Assembly (NCBI RefSeq): GCF_022808935.1
Contig: NZ_JAKZFR010000005.1
Span: 124,001-188,000, forward strand
DNA length: 64,000 nt
From: Geothrix sp. SG200
Lineage (GTDB): Bacteria > Acidobacteriota > Holophagae > Holophagales > Holophagaceae
Direction of reading: 5' to 3'
Shown here: positions 9,853 through 56,336 of the stretch, in pieces
How the letters are laid out: each line of letters opens with the position of its first letter
Numbering within the stretch: the stretch's first letter is position 1
The notes under the pieces: generated by a model
What the model was told of the DNA's origin: nothing
Seen by the model: the letters and a program-made list of their open reading frames with translations, nothing else
The model's database searches: none
Made by a program: the position numbers and the translations under genes

Positions 9853-9991
9853 GCATAGGCCGGGCTACGCCCGGCCTATGCGCGGGGGTCTCGGGGGGGG
9901 GGCTCCATCTCCACGAGCCCTGCGGGCGAGTGGGAGCCACGCGCCGCGTGGCGTCAGATGGAGGCGCGCAGCGCACACCCCCGGACAGCAT
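9853..9991 (-). repeat. Composite intergenic repeat: hairpin + REP-like element, 3' of rpmA
   Basis: Between rpmA and obgE. It contains a 13-bp hairpin (GCATAGGCCGGGC at 9853-9865 with its complement at 9869-9881). A REP-like element follows with head GTGGGAG (9930-9936), stem CCACGC/GCGTGG (9937-9942, 9946-9951) and outer helix CTCCATCT (9903-9910) pairing with AGATGGAG (9956-9963). The last part (CACACCCCCGG...) abuts the rpmA stop codon. The outer helix covaries with the copy at 12396-12456. Confidence 0.75.
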
Positions 9992-10252
9992 TCATCCTTC
10001 GATCGGGTCGATGTGGATGAAGCGGCCGGACTGGCCCTTGTCCTGGAAGCGCACCTTGCCGTCGATCTTGGCAAAGAGGGTGTGGTCCTTGCCCATGCCG
10101 ACATTGATGCCGGCCTTGAACTTGGTGCCGCGCTGGCGGACCAGGATGGAGCCGCCGGTGACGACCTCGCCACCGAACTCCTTCACGCCCAGGCGCTGGG
10201 AATGGGAATCACGACCGTTGCGGCTGGAACCGACGCCTTTTTTGTGAGCCAT
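9992..10252 (-). CDS. rpmA: 50S ribosomal protein L27
   Basis: An 86-residue L27, near the peptidyl-transferase centre. [20 protein letters not shown] at the N-terminus is canonical and begins directly with the mature-type sequence, so the cleavable N-terminal extension of some Firmicutes is absent. [14 protein letters not shown] and the [14 protein letters not shown] segment follow. It sits between rplU and obgE. The stop codon is immediately followed by a GC-rich repeat module. Confidence 0.97.
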
Positions 10253-21086: not shown

Positions 21087-21171
21087 CTGATCAGAATACC
21101 GTGGGGACGGCCGATCCCCGATTGGCATAAACTTGAAGGTTCCCCGGAAGCTCGGGCTGGAGACGCGGACG

Positions 21172-22278
21172 ATGGATTTCGAGACCCTGGTGCGGGCCAA
21201 GAACGAACTGGAGCCCCGGGTCCGGCAGCTGGTCGCCCACCTGGATCCCGAGCGCAAGGCCCTGGAACTGGAACAGATCGAGGAGCGGACCACCGCCCCG
21301 GGCTTCTGGGACGATCCCGAGGCCGCCAAGCCCCTGCTCCAGAAGCGGGGCTCCATCAGCGATGACATCGCCCTGGCCAAGCGCCTGTCCGGCGGGCTGG
21401 AGGACCTGGAGACGGGGCTGGAGCTGGCCCGCGAGGACGCCGAGATGCTGGTCGAGGCCGAGGCCGTGGAGACGGGGCTCCGCAAGGCGGTGGAGGATGC
21501 CGAGCTGAGGATGATGCTCAGCGGCGACCTGGACAACAACCACGCCATCGTTGCCATCGCACCCGGCGCCGGCGGCACCGAGAGCCAGGACTGGGCCGCC
21601 ATGCTGCTGCGCATGTACCTGCGCTTCTGCGAAGCCAAGGGCTGGGCCACGGAGATGATCGACTACCAGGACGGGGAGGAGGCCGGCATCAAGGGCGCCA
21701 CCTTCATCGTCGACGCGCCCTTCTCCTACGGCTACCTGCGGGCCGAGGCGGGCGTCCACCGGCTCGTGCGCATCAGCCCCTTCGATGCCGCCAAGCGGCG
21801 CCACACCAGCTTTGCCGCCGTGTACGTGAGCCCCGAGCTGGACGACACCATCAACGTCGAGATCCCCGAGAAGGACCTCAAGATCGATGTCTTCCGCGCC
21901 AGCGGCGCCGGCGGCCAGCACGTGAACCGCACCGAATCAGCCGTGCGCTTCACCCACCTGCCCACGGGCATCGTGGTGAGCTGCCAGAACGAGCGCAGCC
22001 AGATCAAGAACCGCGCGACAGCCATGAAGGTGCTCCAGGCCCGGCTCTACGAGCTGGAACAGCGCAAGTTCCAGGAGAAGGTGGCCGCCGCCAGCGGCGA
22101 CAAGGCCGACGTGGCCTGGGGCAGCCAGATCCGCAGCTACGTCCTCCAGCCCTACCAGATGGTGAAGGACCACCGCACCGGCGAGGAGACCAGCCAGACC
22201 CAGAAGGTCCTCGACGGCGACATCGACGCCTTCATCCGCGCCCAGCTCCTGGCCAAGTCGCTCAAGACCGAAGGCTGA
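21172..22278 (+). CDS. prfB: Peptide chain release factor 2
   Basis: Terminates translation at UGA and UAA. 368 residues from the ATG at 21172, which has GGAGA 8 bp upstream. The GGQ peptidyl-hydrolysis motif lies in SGAGGQHVNRTESAVR, and the stop-codon-reading tripeptide is SPF (RISPFDA), which defines RF2 rather than RF1. The frame is continuous: the programmed +1 frameshift that autoregulates prfB in E. coli and most bacteria is absent. Divergent from the lipase gene. Confidence 0.95.
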   Translation: MDFETLVRAKNELEPRVRQLVAHLDPERKALELEQIEERTTAPGFWDDPEAAKPLLQKRGSISDDIALAKRLSGGLEDLETGLELAREDAEMLVEAEAVETGLRKAVEDAELRMMLSGDLDNNHAIVAIAPGAGGTESQDWAAMLLRMYLRFCEAKGWATEMIDYQDGEEAGIKGATFIVDAPFSYGYLRAEAGVHRLVRISPFDAAKRRHTSFAAVYVSPELDDTINVEIPEKDLKIDVFRASGAGGQHVNRTESAVRFTHLPTGIVVSCQNERSQIKNRATAMKVLQARLYELEQRKFQEKVAAASGDKADVAWGSQIRSYVLQPYQMVKDHRTGEETSQTQKVLDGDIDAFIRAQLLAKSLKTEG

Positions 22279-22280
22279 GG

Positions 22281-22896
22281 CTCACTCGCCCTTGGCGATC
22301 TTCTGCTGCTCATCCTTAGGCAGCCGGAAGACCCAGCGGCCCGTGATGCGGTCCCAGAGGTCGAAGCAGCAGAGCCAGTTGAGGAGGCCGGCGACCGGGG
22401 GCCCCGCTCCGCGAACGGGGTCGAAGGCCCCGTGAGTGGGAGGACGCGCCAGTGGCGCGTTAGATCGCGGGCAGCCAGGGCCGCGTGCGCGCTCGAAGGC
22501 GCGCCCAGCGGCCGCCCGGAGGGCGTGATGGCTACTCGCCCTTGGCGATCTTCTCCTGCTCATCCTTGGGCAGCCGGAAGACCCAGCGGCCCGTGATGCG
22601 GTCCCAGAGGTCGAAGCAGCAGAGCCAGTTGAGGAGGCCGGCGACCGGGGGCCCCGCTCCGCGAACGGGGTCGAAGGCCCCGTGAGTGGGAGGACGCGCC
22701 AGTGGCGCGTCCGATCGCGGGCAGCCAGGGCCGCGTGCGCGCTCGAAGGCGCGCCCAGCGGCCGCCCGGAGGGCGTGATGGCTACTCGCCCTTGGCGATC
22801 TTCTCCTGCTCGTCCTTGGGGAGGCGGAAGACCCAGCGACCCGTGATGCGGTCCCAGAGGTCGAAGCAGCAGAGCCAGTTGAGGAGGCCGGCGACC
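22281..22896 (-). repeat. Tandem duplication of a gene 3' end: two 250-bp units plus the native copy
   Basis: The last 37 codons plus stop of the membrane gene (native at 22781-22896, 116 bp) recur at 22531-22646 and 22281-22396, exactly 250 bp apart each time. Each copy is followed by a 134-bp spacer that holds a REP-like hairpin (head GTGGGAG at 22686-22692, stem GACGCGCC/GGCGCGTC at 22693-22700 and 22704-22711; equivalent at 22436-22461). The two downstream copies resemble each other more than the native one. They have no start codon context of their own and are not considered genes. This accounts for all of the roughly 500-bp gap between prfB and the membrane gene. Confidence 0.93.
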
Positions 22897-23282
22897 ATCA
22901 CGTAGGTGGCTCCGTACTCCTGCGTGAGCGTGCGCACAGGCTCGGTGCCCGCGCCACCGAAGGCCCAGGCGAAGATGCCGTACGCCGGCCCGATGCCCGC
23001 GGTGGCGAAGGCGCCCAGGGTGGGCAGCCAGGCCCCGGCCTGGGGCACGAAGACGCCGCCCTTCACGCCCGCGACCGCGCCGTACTGCATCTGCAGGGCG
23101 CCCAGGAGGCAGAAGAGCGTCCAGACGCCGAAGAACGCCTTGGCCCGGCCCTTTTCGCCGATCATCCAGTAGCCCGCACCCGGCACCAGCCACTGGAACA
23201 GCAGCGGCTTCCACGCGGCCTGGACGGCCTTCTGGCGGCGGAGGGGCATGGGGAGCCGTGGAACGGACTTGTCGTCGGTCAT
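22782..23282 (-). CDS. Small integral membrane protein of unknown function (DUF6677/TM2-like)
   Basis: A 166-residue protein with about four hydrophobic segments, beginning after a basic N-terminus (MPLRRQKAVQAAWKP). The LVPGAGYWMIGEKGRAKAFF segment resembles the PG.GH...G...A motif of TM2/DUF6677-type acidobacterial membrane proteins. That match is by eye only. The conserved C-terminus (LLNWLCCFDLWDRITGRW and a charged tail KDEQEKIAKGE) is the part duplicated twice downstream. It is divergent from the histidine kinase gene with a 68-bp spacer. Confidence 0.7.
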   Translation of the reverse strand: MTDDKSVPRLPMPLRRQKAVQAAWKPLLFQWLVPGAGYWMIGEKGRAKAFFGVWTLFCLLGALQMQYGAVAGVKGGVFVPQAGAWLPTLGAFATAGIGPAYGIFAWAFGGAGTEPVRTLTQEYGATYVMVAGLLNWLCCFDLWDRITGRWVFRLPKDEQEKIAKGE

Positions 23283-25718: not shown

Positions 25719-25803
25719 TCTAGAGGCGCGCTGCGCGTCTCCACCTGACGCCACGCGGGGCGTGGCTCCCACCCGCCCTCTGGGCTCGCGGAGGGGGACC
25801 TCC
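25719..25803 (-). repeat. REP-like element, inverted orientation
   Basis: Minus-strand copy of the REP-like family: head CTCCCAC (complement of GTGGGAG, 25766-25772), stem GCCACGC (25750-25756) / GCGTGGC (25760-25766), tail CTGACG and flank GGCGCGCTGCGCG. It lies 42 bp after the response regulator stop. The outer helix is partly degraded here (CCCCCTCC against AGGTGGAG). Confidence 0.72.
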
Positions 25804-30864: not shown

Positions 30865-31065
30865 GTCCCCGGCGAACGGCAGGAGCGCGATGCGAGGGAC
30901 GACGCGGGTCGCGGAGGAGGCTCCAAGGGAGCCTTCGGAGCGGGGCCCCGCCGACCCGAGTGCGCGCTTGATGGCTTCGACGGAGGCTCCATCTCCGCGA
31001 GTGGAGCGAGCGGGAGGGCACGCCGGGGGCGTGCCCGTCAGATGGAGGGCGCGCTGGTGGACGGC
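30865..31065 (-). pseudogene. Decoy copy of the rpsR 3' end split by two repeat insertions
   Basis: Read on the minus strand, a degenerate copy of the last codons of rpsR appears 125 bp beyond the real gene. AVHQRAL (31046-31065), VEAIKRA (30962-30982) and IALLPFA plus a near-identical 3' end (30865-30892) are separated by two insertions of about 21 and 23 codons, both keeping frame. The first insertion is a REP-like element: head GCGGGAG (31010-31016), stem GGGCACGCC/GGCGTGCCC (31016-31024, 31028-31036) and outer helix CTCCATCT/AGATGGAG (30987-30994, 31040-31047). It cannot encode a functional S18. Confidence 0.85.
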
Positions 31066-31089
31066 AGAAGCTGACCGGCCCCGGAGGGG

Positions 31090-31843: not shown

Positions 31844-31954
31844 CTGTCCTCCTTGTGGATGTGAAGCCCCCCTCTGGGTTCCGGGGAGCAAGAGAGGTCC
31901 CATCTCTCGCCGGCAGCGCCGGTGAGGAGCACGGTCCGGGGGGCCGTGCGTTCG

Positions 31955-31985
31955 ATGGGTACGCCTCCAGCGGAGGCGCGAACGG
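31955..31985. repeat. REP-like hairpin between pth and rpsF
   Basis: GATGGGTA head, stem CGCCTCC/GGAGGCG (31962-31968, 31972-31978) around AGC, tail CGAACGGA. It has the same loop (AGC) and layout as the element at 55817-55846, but a different stem sequence. Confidence 0.55.
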
Positions 31986-32032
31986 ATAGTTTCGCGCGGA
32001 AGGTCAGGAAATTCAATGAAAAGTCGTGCGGC

Positions 32033-54863: not shown

Positions 54864-55055
54864 GCGCCCTCTTACTTGCCGAACCGCTTGGAGACTTCGC
54901 TCCACTTGATGTTCTCGACAAACGCCTCGAGGTACTTCGCGCGGGCGGTGCCAGCGGGGCCCCGTCCGTGAAGCCGAGCGAAGCGAAAGCTGAACGGGAG
55001 CAGGCCCCATGCGGGGCCTGCGATCCGGGGGGCGACGAGGTTCACCCGCGCCCTC
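54864..55055 (-). repeat. Duplicated 3' end of sodB plus REP-like spacer
   Basis: An 89-bp copy of the sodB 3' end (54864-54952; one mismatch to 55048-55136, offset exactly 184 bp) encodes the last 25-26 residues and stop. The spacer contains a REP-like element: head ACGGGAG (54994-55000), stem CAGGCCCC/GGGGCCTG (55001-55008, 55013-55020), tail CGAT. The copy lacks a start. It is the same arrangement as at 22281-22896. Confidence 0.92.
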
Positions 55056-55634
55056 TTACTTGCCGAACCGCTTGGAGACTTCGCTCCACTTGATGTTCTC
55101 GACAAAGGCCTCGAGGTACTTCGCGCGGGCGGTGCCGTAGTCGACCATGAACGCGTGCTCCCAGCTGTCCAGCACCAGGAGCAGGTCCTGCTCGATGGGC
55201 AGGCCCAGGTGGTGCTCGGCGATGAAGTAGGTGTGCAGCTTGCCGTCGCGGCGGTTGCGGGTGAGCACGGCCCAGCCGGGGCCGCAGAGGGCCGCGGCCT
55301 TGAGGTCGGCGACCACCTTGTCCTTGCCACCCACGGCGTCCAGGGCGGCCTTGAGGCCGGAACTGATGTCGCCGTCGGCGCCCAGGTTCTCGAAGTAGAG
55401 CTCATGGAGGAAGGAGCCGTTGAAGGCCACGGCCTCGCGGCGCTTCAGTTCGCTGTACTCGTTGAAGGAGTAGTTGGCCTTGGTGTTGTCCGCCGTCGCC
55501 AGCTTCTCCTCGATCTCGTTCAGCTTGGTGATGTAGCCCTTGTAGAGGCCGAAGTGCTGGTCCAGCTGGGAATCGCTGAGCCCCTTCAGGGCGCCGCCCT
55601 TCAGGTGGTCGTAGTTCTTGGCGGTGTAGGCCAT
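55056..55634 (-). CDS. sodB: Superoxide dismutase (Fe/Mn), atypical short-loop type
   Basis: A 192-residue Fe/Mn SOD. Metal ligands: H27 (LDQHFGLYKGY), H77 (FNGSFLHELYF), D156 and H160 (LDSWEHAFMVDYG). The usual HxxxHHxxY helix segment is replaced by HFGLYKGY, one residue shorter, as in an acidobacterial/Bacteroidetes-like SOD subgroup. No signal peptide, so cytoplasmic. The ATG at 55634 is preceded by AGGAGA. The last 25 codons are duplicated downstream. Neighbouring dps and rubrerythrin genes make an oxidative-stress cluster. Confidence 0.9.
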   Translation of the reverse strand: MAYTAKNYDHLKGGALKGLSDSQLDQHFGLYKGYITKLNEIEEKLATADNTKANYSFNEYSELKRREAVAFNGSFLHELYFENLGADGDISSGLKAALDAVGGKDKVVADLKAAALCGPGWAVLTRNRRDGKLHTYFIAEHHLGLPIEQDLLLVLDSWEHAFMVDYGTARAKYLEAFVENIKWSEVSKRFGK

Positions 55635-55816
55635 GGGTGTCTCCTTGGCTGCGCGACGCGCGGATGGGTAGTTTACTGAAGAAGTCGGAAATTGGATGAA
55701 ACAGGCACAATGTTCAGGTGCGGGTCCGGTATCAGACGCGGTGCCGGGCTTGGCTCGGACCCCGCGTGGGGATGCGCGAGGGGGGACAGGGGTCCCGGAT
55801 CCGTGAGCACATGCGA

Positions 55817-55846
55817 GCGGGAACACGCTCCAGCGGAGCGTGCGAT
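55817..55846. repeat. REP-like element between dps and sodB
   Basis: Head GCGGGAA (55817-55823), stem CACGCTCC/GGAGCGTG (55824-55831, 55835-55842) around AGC, tail CGAT (55843-55846). The surrounding 55690-55890 region is GC-rich with further inverted segments and no supported gene. Confidence 0.7.
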
Positions 55847-55892
55847 AACCGGGCAGGTCGCGAAGCGTCCGGGCGGTCCCCCCTCGTCCAGA

Positions 55893-56336
55893 TCAGCCCA
55901 GCATTTCCCTCAGGAACCAGGCTTCTTTCTGGTGGACCTGGACGAAGCGGGTGAGCAGGTCGGCGGTGCCAGGATCGCTGGCCTCGTTGGCGAGCTCGAT
56001 GCCCTCGTGCATGAGGGACACGGTGGCCTCCTCATTGGCCAGGGCCTCCTTCAGCATGGCCTCGGGATCGAGACGGGCGGAGGGGTTGGAGATGGCGGCC
56101 TTGGTCTGGGCCTCGATCTGGGCCGGGGCGTGGATCGGCACGCCGCCCATCATGCGGATGCGCTCCGCCAGCTCGTCCACGGTGCCGTCGGCGGCGGTGT
56201 AGAGGTCCTCGAAGCGCAGGTGGTAGTCGCGGAAGTGGGGGCCGGTGACGGTCCAGTGGTAGCGCTTGGCATTGAGGGCCAACACGAAGGCGGTGGCCAG
56301 CTCGGCATTCAGGTGGTCGATGACGGAACGGTTCAT
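55893..56336 (-). CDS. dps: Dps-family DNA-protecting mini-ferritin
   Basis: A 147-residue Dps/miniferritin. The ferroxidase site at the subunit interface is seen in NAKRYHWTVTGPHFRDYHLR followed by FEDLYTAADGTVDELAERI (His, Asp, Glu ligands). It protects DNA by oxidising Fe(II) with peroxide. Short N-terminus without the Lys-rich DNA-binding tail of E. coli Dps, so DNA binding is uncertain. Downstream of the DUF3501-like and rubrerythrin genes on the same strand, and probably co-transcribed. Confidence 0.92.
   Translation of the reverse strand: MNRSVIDHLNAELATAFVLALNAKRYHWTVTGPHFRDYHLRFEDLYTAADGTVDELAERIRMMGGVPIHAPAQIEAQTKAAISNPSARLDPEAMLKEALANEEATVSLMHEGIELANEASDPGTADLLTRFVQVHQKEAWFLREMLG

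Follow-up and report, generated by a model that had tools for sequence, protein, structure and literature searches.

The DNA analysed here (the window) is a 64,000-nt stretch of the genome of Geothrix sp. SG200, in which prfB and a gene for a DUF6677 membrane protein converge on a three-copy array. The last 115 nt of the DUF6677 gene (37 codons plus stop) are present three times in steps of exactly 250 nt, and the copies are separated by two 135-nt spacers, here called X. A second instance of the arrangement lies in the window at a superoxide dismutase gene. The outer, truncated gene-end copy is termed D1 and the copy on the other side of X D2, and the features of both sites are as follows.

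21133–22278, plus strand: prfB, convergent neighbour of the DUF6677 gene
22282–22396, minus strand: D1, outer truncated DUF6677 gene end (37 codons and TGA stop), 3 nt from the prfB stop
22397–22531, plus strand: X copy 1 (three-way junction, hairpin 3 and tail), from fold and covariation
About 22400–22407 paired with 22467–22476: closing stem of X copy 1
About 22408–22440, 22442–22462 and 22480–22512: hairpins 1, 2 and 3 of X copy 1
22532–22646, minus strand: D2, middle DUF6677 gene-end copy (TAG stop)
22647–22781, plus strand: X copy 2
22782–22896, minus strand: native DUF6677 3′ end; the inner junction, 22896/22897, matches the D/X junctions
22782–23282, minus strand: DUF6677 membrane gene, intact, 166 aa
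54872–54952, minus strand: superoxide dismutase D1, gene-end copy (27 codons including stop)
54953–55055, plus strand: X of the superoxide dismutase site
55056–55136, minus strand: superoxide dismutase D2, the native 3′ end; the gene continues rightward

Self-comparison of the prfB/DUF6677 locus confirmed what a preliminary description had reported, namely three copies of the last 37 codons and stop with a constant period. As also described there, the inner edge of the duplication falls within the DUF6677 gene, and the element sits at the 3′ end of a gene that is left intact; the outer edge of the duplication is at the stop codon. The array had a TRF score of 1171, against at most 58 for every other array in the window. 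By repeat comparison, the two 250-nt units were 98% identical, and the outer and native gene-end copies 95% identical. Within the gene, the outer and middle copies differed by three synonymous and one non-synonymous changes, the middle and native copies by four and none, and the outer and native copies by seven and one, so that the claim of a closer resemblance between the two downstream copies than to the native one holds only mildly. G. terrae and G. paludis have orthologues of the DUF6677 gene that are 97% identical. Six genomes, this one among them, share the junction and the 250-nt period at this site, and relatives carried 0, 1 or 2 units with identical junctions, in keeping with the variation that the preliminary description had looked for. 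An assembly artefact, which it had raised against itself, is very unlikely, because five other genomes share the 250-nt structure, with one X, and X with duplications also occurs in single-contig genomes (e.g. G007, G032).

X is a short structured element of about 85–140 nt without an ORF. Searching with X revealed diverged relatives at four other places in this genome, namely a RidA gene, prfA, a MacB-type permease gene and the 5′ end of rsmI; each time X separates the intact gene from an incomplete duplicate of its terminus. Further X-like matches in this genome, such as L019, L020, L021 and L024, had no such copy on inspection. The consensus fold from 11 X copies comprised a closing stem enclosing two hairpins (a three-way junction) and then a third hairpin, with 38 pairs, 11 of which showed two-sided changes. 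A covariance model, R1, was built from 11 X sequences, every one of them duplication-bearing; pattern searches and single-X queries recovered fewer X than this model. Among 90 model-aligned matches, 95.2% of pair cells were standard, 30 of the 38 pairs showed two-sided change, and the covariation score was 0.386, compared with 0.118 (sd 0.005) for shuffled and at most 0.061 for slid alignments; the 90-match alignment was fitted to the model and leans toward it, whereas the 11-copy fold alignment does not. Positions 22200–22950 matched no Rfam family at E up to 1, and identity with a known RNA family was rejected on this basis.

The element begins with GGGGGCCCC or a variant immediately after D1. 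Alignment of 22 representatives showed that this start is constant and that the far end varies in length, comprising the three-way junction only, or hairpin 3, or hairpin 4 in addition. A GTGGGAG stretch precedes hairpin 2, and one subtype ends in GGGGGTAGTC. The GTGGGAG hairpin noted in the preliminary description is indeed present in the spacers, but as one part of the larger three-way-junction element. Subtypes could be told apart by their closing stems (GGCCCCGC/GCGGGCTGCC, CCCGC/GCGGG, CCCCC/GGGGG and GTCT/AGAC-type; L241–L260 and site representatives), in which the letters change and the pairing is kept.

Some variants were also recorded. At the rsmI 5′ site of this genome (L012:1561–1730), hairpin 2 is much longer, as if a second hairpin had been inserted in its tip. 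Four weak X-like matches in the window (30–44 bits; 9899–9998, 30983–31072, 31894–32013 and 55789–55926) have no adjacent duplication and are possibly decayed or different members. At 25765–25803 (minus strand), a short X-like hairpin fragment without flanking duplication lies between a response-regulator-like ORF and a transporter-like ORF. Elsewhere in the genome, L020 (~1400–1700) and L021 (~1400–1800) hold longer REPIN-like composites of inverted X-like hairpins, near-identical to one another and in inverted orientation.

Read in the orientation of X, the order was constant at both 5′ and 3′ gene ends: outer flank, D1, X, D2, rest of the intact gene. The polarity of X follows D1 and D2, not transcription, and its orientation relative to the gene is opposite at 5′ and 3′ ends; RNA-level splicing was rejected on account of this flip. 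The end of X adjoins the stop codon in 3′ cases or the start region in 5′ cases, 91–143 nt from the X start, a distance too short to encode a homing endonuclease. D spans 28–199 nt of the gene start or end, in rows with a called frame. We tabulated 20 distinct sites in 18 genes (22 representatives), with host-gene names taken from NCBIfam or Pfam. The 3′-end sites were in genes for DUF6677 (two), RidA (two), prfA, YebC, 2-oxoacid dehydrogenase E2, MoaE, MetK, aspartate-semialdehyde dehydrogenase, a MacB/FtsX-type permease, a PcrA/UvrD-type helicase, RecR and superoxide dismutase, and the 5′-end sites in rsmI, mutL, uvrA, miaB, dusB and a gene for a Gfo/Idh-type oxidoreductase. The base after the inner junction was A or T at 16 of the 20 sites (p about 2e-5 against 33%). 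A fixed outer D edge about 7 nt past the stop was considered and dropped: 6–8 nt were shared at four sites, and 0–2 at the others. Many host genes belong to DNA repair or translation (uvrA, uvrD-type, mutL, recR, prfA, rsmI, miaB, dusB), which may reflect conservation only.

With an E-value limit of 1e-3, R1 had matches in 46 of the 47 Geothrix genomes. Across the class Holophagae, at E up to 1e-4, it matched 44 of 47 Geothrix genomes, 10 of 30 genomes of other Holophagaceae and none of 16 genomes of two other Holophagae families. The association with duplications was assessed in 60 regions picked from the listed matches together with loci already in the analysis, which gave 90 matches in 71 sources, 89 of them analysed. 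In 83 of the 89, a direct duplication ended within 8 nt of the X start. As controls, shuffling the left flanks produced such a duplication twice in 1780 trials, and substituting genuine flanks from unrelated sites produced it twice in 600; the latter control excludes orthologous sites, and an earlier random pairing that included them gave 46 similar of 297, 24 at X. Six matches lacked a duplication alongside: L158, where a 12-nt stub is left, and five weak matches of 30–44 bits, being the four in the window and one in L203. Twenty further X regions were taken from other genera (14) and from partial Geothrix matches (6, with X edges extended by hand and a search core of 60 nt instead of 85), and 19 of these 20 carried the duplication. 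They include a ClpB C-terminus (168 nt) and a tRNA-Arg 5′ end; at L246 the gene-end copy lies 84 nt away. At the miaB site in three genomes of another genus, the inner junction was that of this genome, with G078 shorter. We conclude with high confidence, as regards anatomy and generality, that the X elements form a family-wide class, encode no protein and come with gene-end duplications. The preliminary description was partly right and too narrow, as the locus belongs to a family-wide system at some 20 gene ends.

Divergence between D1 and D2 was examined in 62 pairs, these being chosen rows with a clear frame (L172, L176, L010, L012 and array-internal rows that had been framed wrongly, such as L009:1292 and L147:836, set aside). 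The pairs held 118 synonymous and 37 non-synonymous differences, a non-synonymous share of 24%, compared with about 60% expected if D1 drifted freely; the p-value is only indicative because array copies and orthologues among the 62 rows are not independent. The D1 stop codon was kept in 52 of 54 3′ cases, with a different stop in six. Since the differences are mostly synonymous and the stop is kept, D1 looks, on sequence grounds, like the displaced end of a functional allele and not like a decaying target duplication. D1 was nearest to the D2 of its own genome in 28 of 43 cases, with 10 ties (sites common to several species, retaining two rows mis-registered by indels, G017 prfA and G002 MacB), a closeness that also fits local conversion. 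Element insertion with target duplication, as first proposed, is therefore incomplete: a plain target duplication accounts neither for the synonymous bias (118 of 155) nor for the resemblance of D1 to its own D2.

At the uvrA site of this genome, D1 and D2 showed 14 differences, all synonymous, and D1 was joined to the upstream region that is found before intact uvrA in other Geothrix species. It was D2, not D1, that lay nearer to the closest relatives (13 against 19 differences from G046). These distances are the reverse of a simple picture in which D2 is foreign.

Comparison of X sequences showed site-specific lineages. For one site across genomes, the median X distance was 0.135 (102 pairs), whereas for different sites in one genome the median was 0.451 and the minimum 0.328 (50 pairs). 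A recently jumping transposon was rejected on this basis, X at different sites of one genome being more diverged than same-site X between genomes, and no recent jump between sites was seen in the sample of 42 X. At three of the four sites compared, X distances were correlated with those between the gene bodies, a pattern that vertical descent would also give. Occupancy, compared between species with one genome per species, was patchy between close species, X-less relatives standing beside X-bearing ones. A single D was found at 61 of the DUF6677 loci searched, some genomes being counted twice, and the gap between the DUF6677 gene and prfB was only 31 bp in G. paludis and 4 bp in G. oryzisoli. 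G. limicola carried X at another junction of the DUF6677 gene (34 nt of gene end). Two or three X stood in tandem at 11 of 71 loci, and the stepwise amplification proposed for the window's array is plausible.

Searches for candidate enzymes gave low confidence in any named driver. Domains of Y1 (RAYT) transposases (PF01797) were absent from this genome and present in 5 of 47 Geothrix genomes; as a separate observation, G030 and G032 each hold several identical copies of a Y1 transposase ORF, which are ordinary active insertion sequences, unlike most of the genus. Reverse transcriptase (PF00078) occurred in only 15 of 47 genomes and was rejected as a universal driver. The TnpB-type zinc-ribbon domain (PF07282) occurred in 6 of 47 and not in this genome, and TnpB was likewise rejected; LAGLIDADG_3 was found in none of the 47. 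None of these four enzyme types is a general driver of X. An element of the REP type, moved by a RAYT transposase, would agree with the presence in X of GTGGGAG, then a hairpin and CGATCGCGG, a succession which we take to be typical of some Pseudomonas REPs. Y1 transposases are nevertheless missing from 42 of 47 Geothrix genomes including this one, the fold with its three-way junction is larger, and the duplications are long. The REP reading of the preliminary description, in the RAYT sense, is thus largely refuted for present genomes, and we give it very little credence.

The reading that we prefer, with a probability of roughly 0.45, is that X spreads by homing-like allelic invasion, in which X and a gene end are copied in and the recipient's own end is left behind. 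It starts from what was observed, that is, the architecture and its generality, the fold, the site-specific X lineages, the X-less relatives and the coding-like conservation of D1. We infer from these that D1 is the recipient allele and that invasion is recurrent. An X-bearing allele would consist of X beside an intact gene end, at a fixed site of a conserved gene. Where it meets an allele of that gene without X, recombination using the conserved gene as its anchor would connect the start of X with a fixed position within the recipient gene, importing X and the gene end (D2). The recipient gene would stay intact, and its own end, now the truncated D1, would be stranded on the far side of X. 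If the D copies then recombined, X could be expanded to two or three tandem units, as in the window, or be cleanly deleted. Allelic invasion fits most of the facts: the genes are intact, divergence is synonymous and stops are kept, junctions are fixed from species to species, X lineages keep to their sites, occupancy is patchy, and the genes chosen are conserved ones. A similar architecture published for fungal mitochondria also speaks for it. Active drive and passive recombination could serve it alike, and how X first reached some 20 gene ends lies outside its account. Against it stand the enzyme searches, which yielded no driver, the uvrA D2 nearer to relatives, the closeness of D1 to its own D2, the correlation of X with gene-body distance, the six matches that lack a neighbouring duplication, and L246 with its distant copy. 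A bolder form would make X a protein-free homing element of ~85–140 nt that repeatedly invades fixed gene-end sites, swaps the terminus synonymously, leaves the old one, and persists family-wide by invasion and clean loss, perhaps acting in RNA or single-stranded DNA form together with a host enzyme supplied in trans; this is conceivable and, in our judgement, doubtful.

The main rival to allelic invasion is passive recombination with gene conversion. Under it, an ancient X insertion made a long target duplication, and unequal exchange, conversion and ordinary allelic recombination have since kept D1 like D2, X being static and without drive. The closeness of D1 to its own D2 (28 of 43, 10 ties), the arrays of two or three X at 11 of 71 loci, and the correlation of X and gene-body distances at three of four sites all agree with such upkeep. 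Local conversion alone, however, predicts mostly non-synonymous D1 changes, where 24% was observed, and closely spaced direct repeats should be deleted often, yet the sites persist across the genus; we consider this account rather unlikely. The constant start and length-variable far end of X across 20 sites, the A or T after the inner junction at 16 of them, and the RNA-like covarying fold would suit retroposition. X RNA would then be reverse-transcribed from a nick inside the gene, in the manner of target-primed reverse transcription, and the X start would correspond to the 3′ end of the RNA. The other end would be truncated to a variable extent and the target duplications would be long and of variable size, as with LINEs and SINEs, and later exchange would homogenise D. 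Just 15 of 47 genomes have a reverse transcriptase domain, D stops at the gene boundary on its outer side, an outcome not expected of second nicks placed at random, and the 42 X showed no recent jump between sites, all of which make retroposition improbable. X might instead be kept by selection as a terminator, mRNA stabiliser or attenuator, with D1 a by-product of its arrival. Its strong conserved fold and its place beside a stop or start would accord with a regulatory role; its occurrence at 5′ as well as 3′ ends, X facing opposite ways with respect to the gene in the two cases, and its patchy occupancy between close species would not, and such a role appears more improbable still.

Among known systems, the closest architecture found is that of the mobile-ORF gene hybrids of fungal mitochondria, in the parts of the source available (PMC3630166). 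In Glomus (atp6, atp9, cox2, nad3) and Allomyces (atp6), an element encoding an endonuclease brings along a gene terminus of foreign origin, and the native terminus is left downstream. As far as that account extends, the native Glomus atp6 terminus shows only synonymous differences from that of a relative, the two copies share 63.5% of nucleotides, and its authors inferred that the inserted terminus was transferred from another species (PMC3630166). X sites have the same succession of gene body, inserted terminus, element and displaced native terminus (PMC3630166), and both of their termini are coding sequence of functional type (118 against 37 differences; 52 of 54 stops). The mobile-ORF elements described in those parts are about 1 kb long and encode a LAGLIDADG or GIY-YIG endonuclease, whereas X, of about 85–140 nt, has no ORF. 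Unlike these mitochondrial hybrids, X is bacterial and lies at some 20 gene ends, including 5′ ends and a tRNA, and D1 and D2 are much more alike than the termini that the same account compares.

REPs and RAYTs have been described, including, in the part of that source available, a GTAG-type tag at one palindrome end (PMC3733652). X resembles the REPs and REPINs covered there as a short dispersed intergenic hairpin element with a GTGGGAG-type stretch (PMC3733652). It differs in that Y1 transposases are absent here and from 42 of 47 genomes, in its larger covarying fold, in its tie to gene-end duplications (83 of 89), and in its site-specific lineages in place of recent spread. Insertion of a REP or REPIN is not known to leave long direct repeats of the target. 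SINE/LINE-type retroposons share with X one constant and one variable end, a variable target duplication and a structured core; unlike them, X has no universal reverse transcriptase, its duplication is bounded by the gene end, and its fixed sites are common to species. Some integrative elements rebuild the end of the gene they enter, with one dedicated site per integrase, and carry genes. As with these, the DNA arriving at X sites would make the gene end whole and push the former end aside; unlike them, a single X family, devoid of genes, occupies many sites that have no core in common.

X works like a gene-terminus-replacing mobile element. We file it under neither RAYT-REPs nor endonuclease elements because it has what defines neither. 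No bacterial element of this architecture was found in searches of the open-licence literature, and we know of no class of small bacterial repeats in which gene-end duplication is the rule. As the sole matching architecture is that of protein-coding mitochondrial elements, we regard X as a categorically new class; counted as an odd small hairpin repeat, it would be a variant of a known one. The duplication next to X points to an undescribed route by which tiny DNA elements settle in genes that stay unbroken.

Even if X is maintained only passively, it constitutes a family-wide repeat class whose architecture searches of the open-licence literature did not yield. If allelic invasion is correct, tiny non-coding elements would settle in conserved genes by supplying a replacement end, which would sidestep the constraint that compact bacterial genomes normally place on mobile DNA and would parallel the mobile elements of fungal mitochondria. 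For the soil bacterium Geothrix and its Holophagaceae relatives, which carry X, the comparison of D1 with D2 would then show allelic exchange as recorded in nature, and with so many sites there would be many opportunities to find the enzyme.
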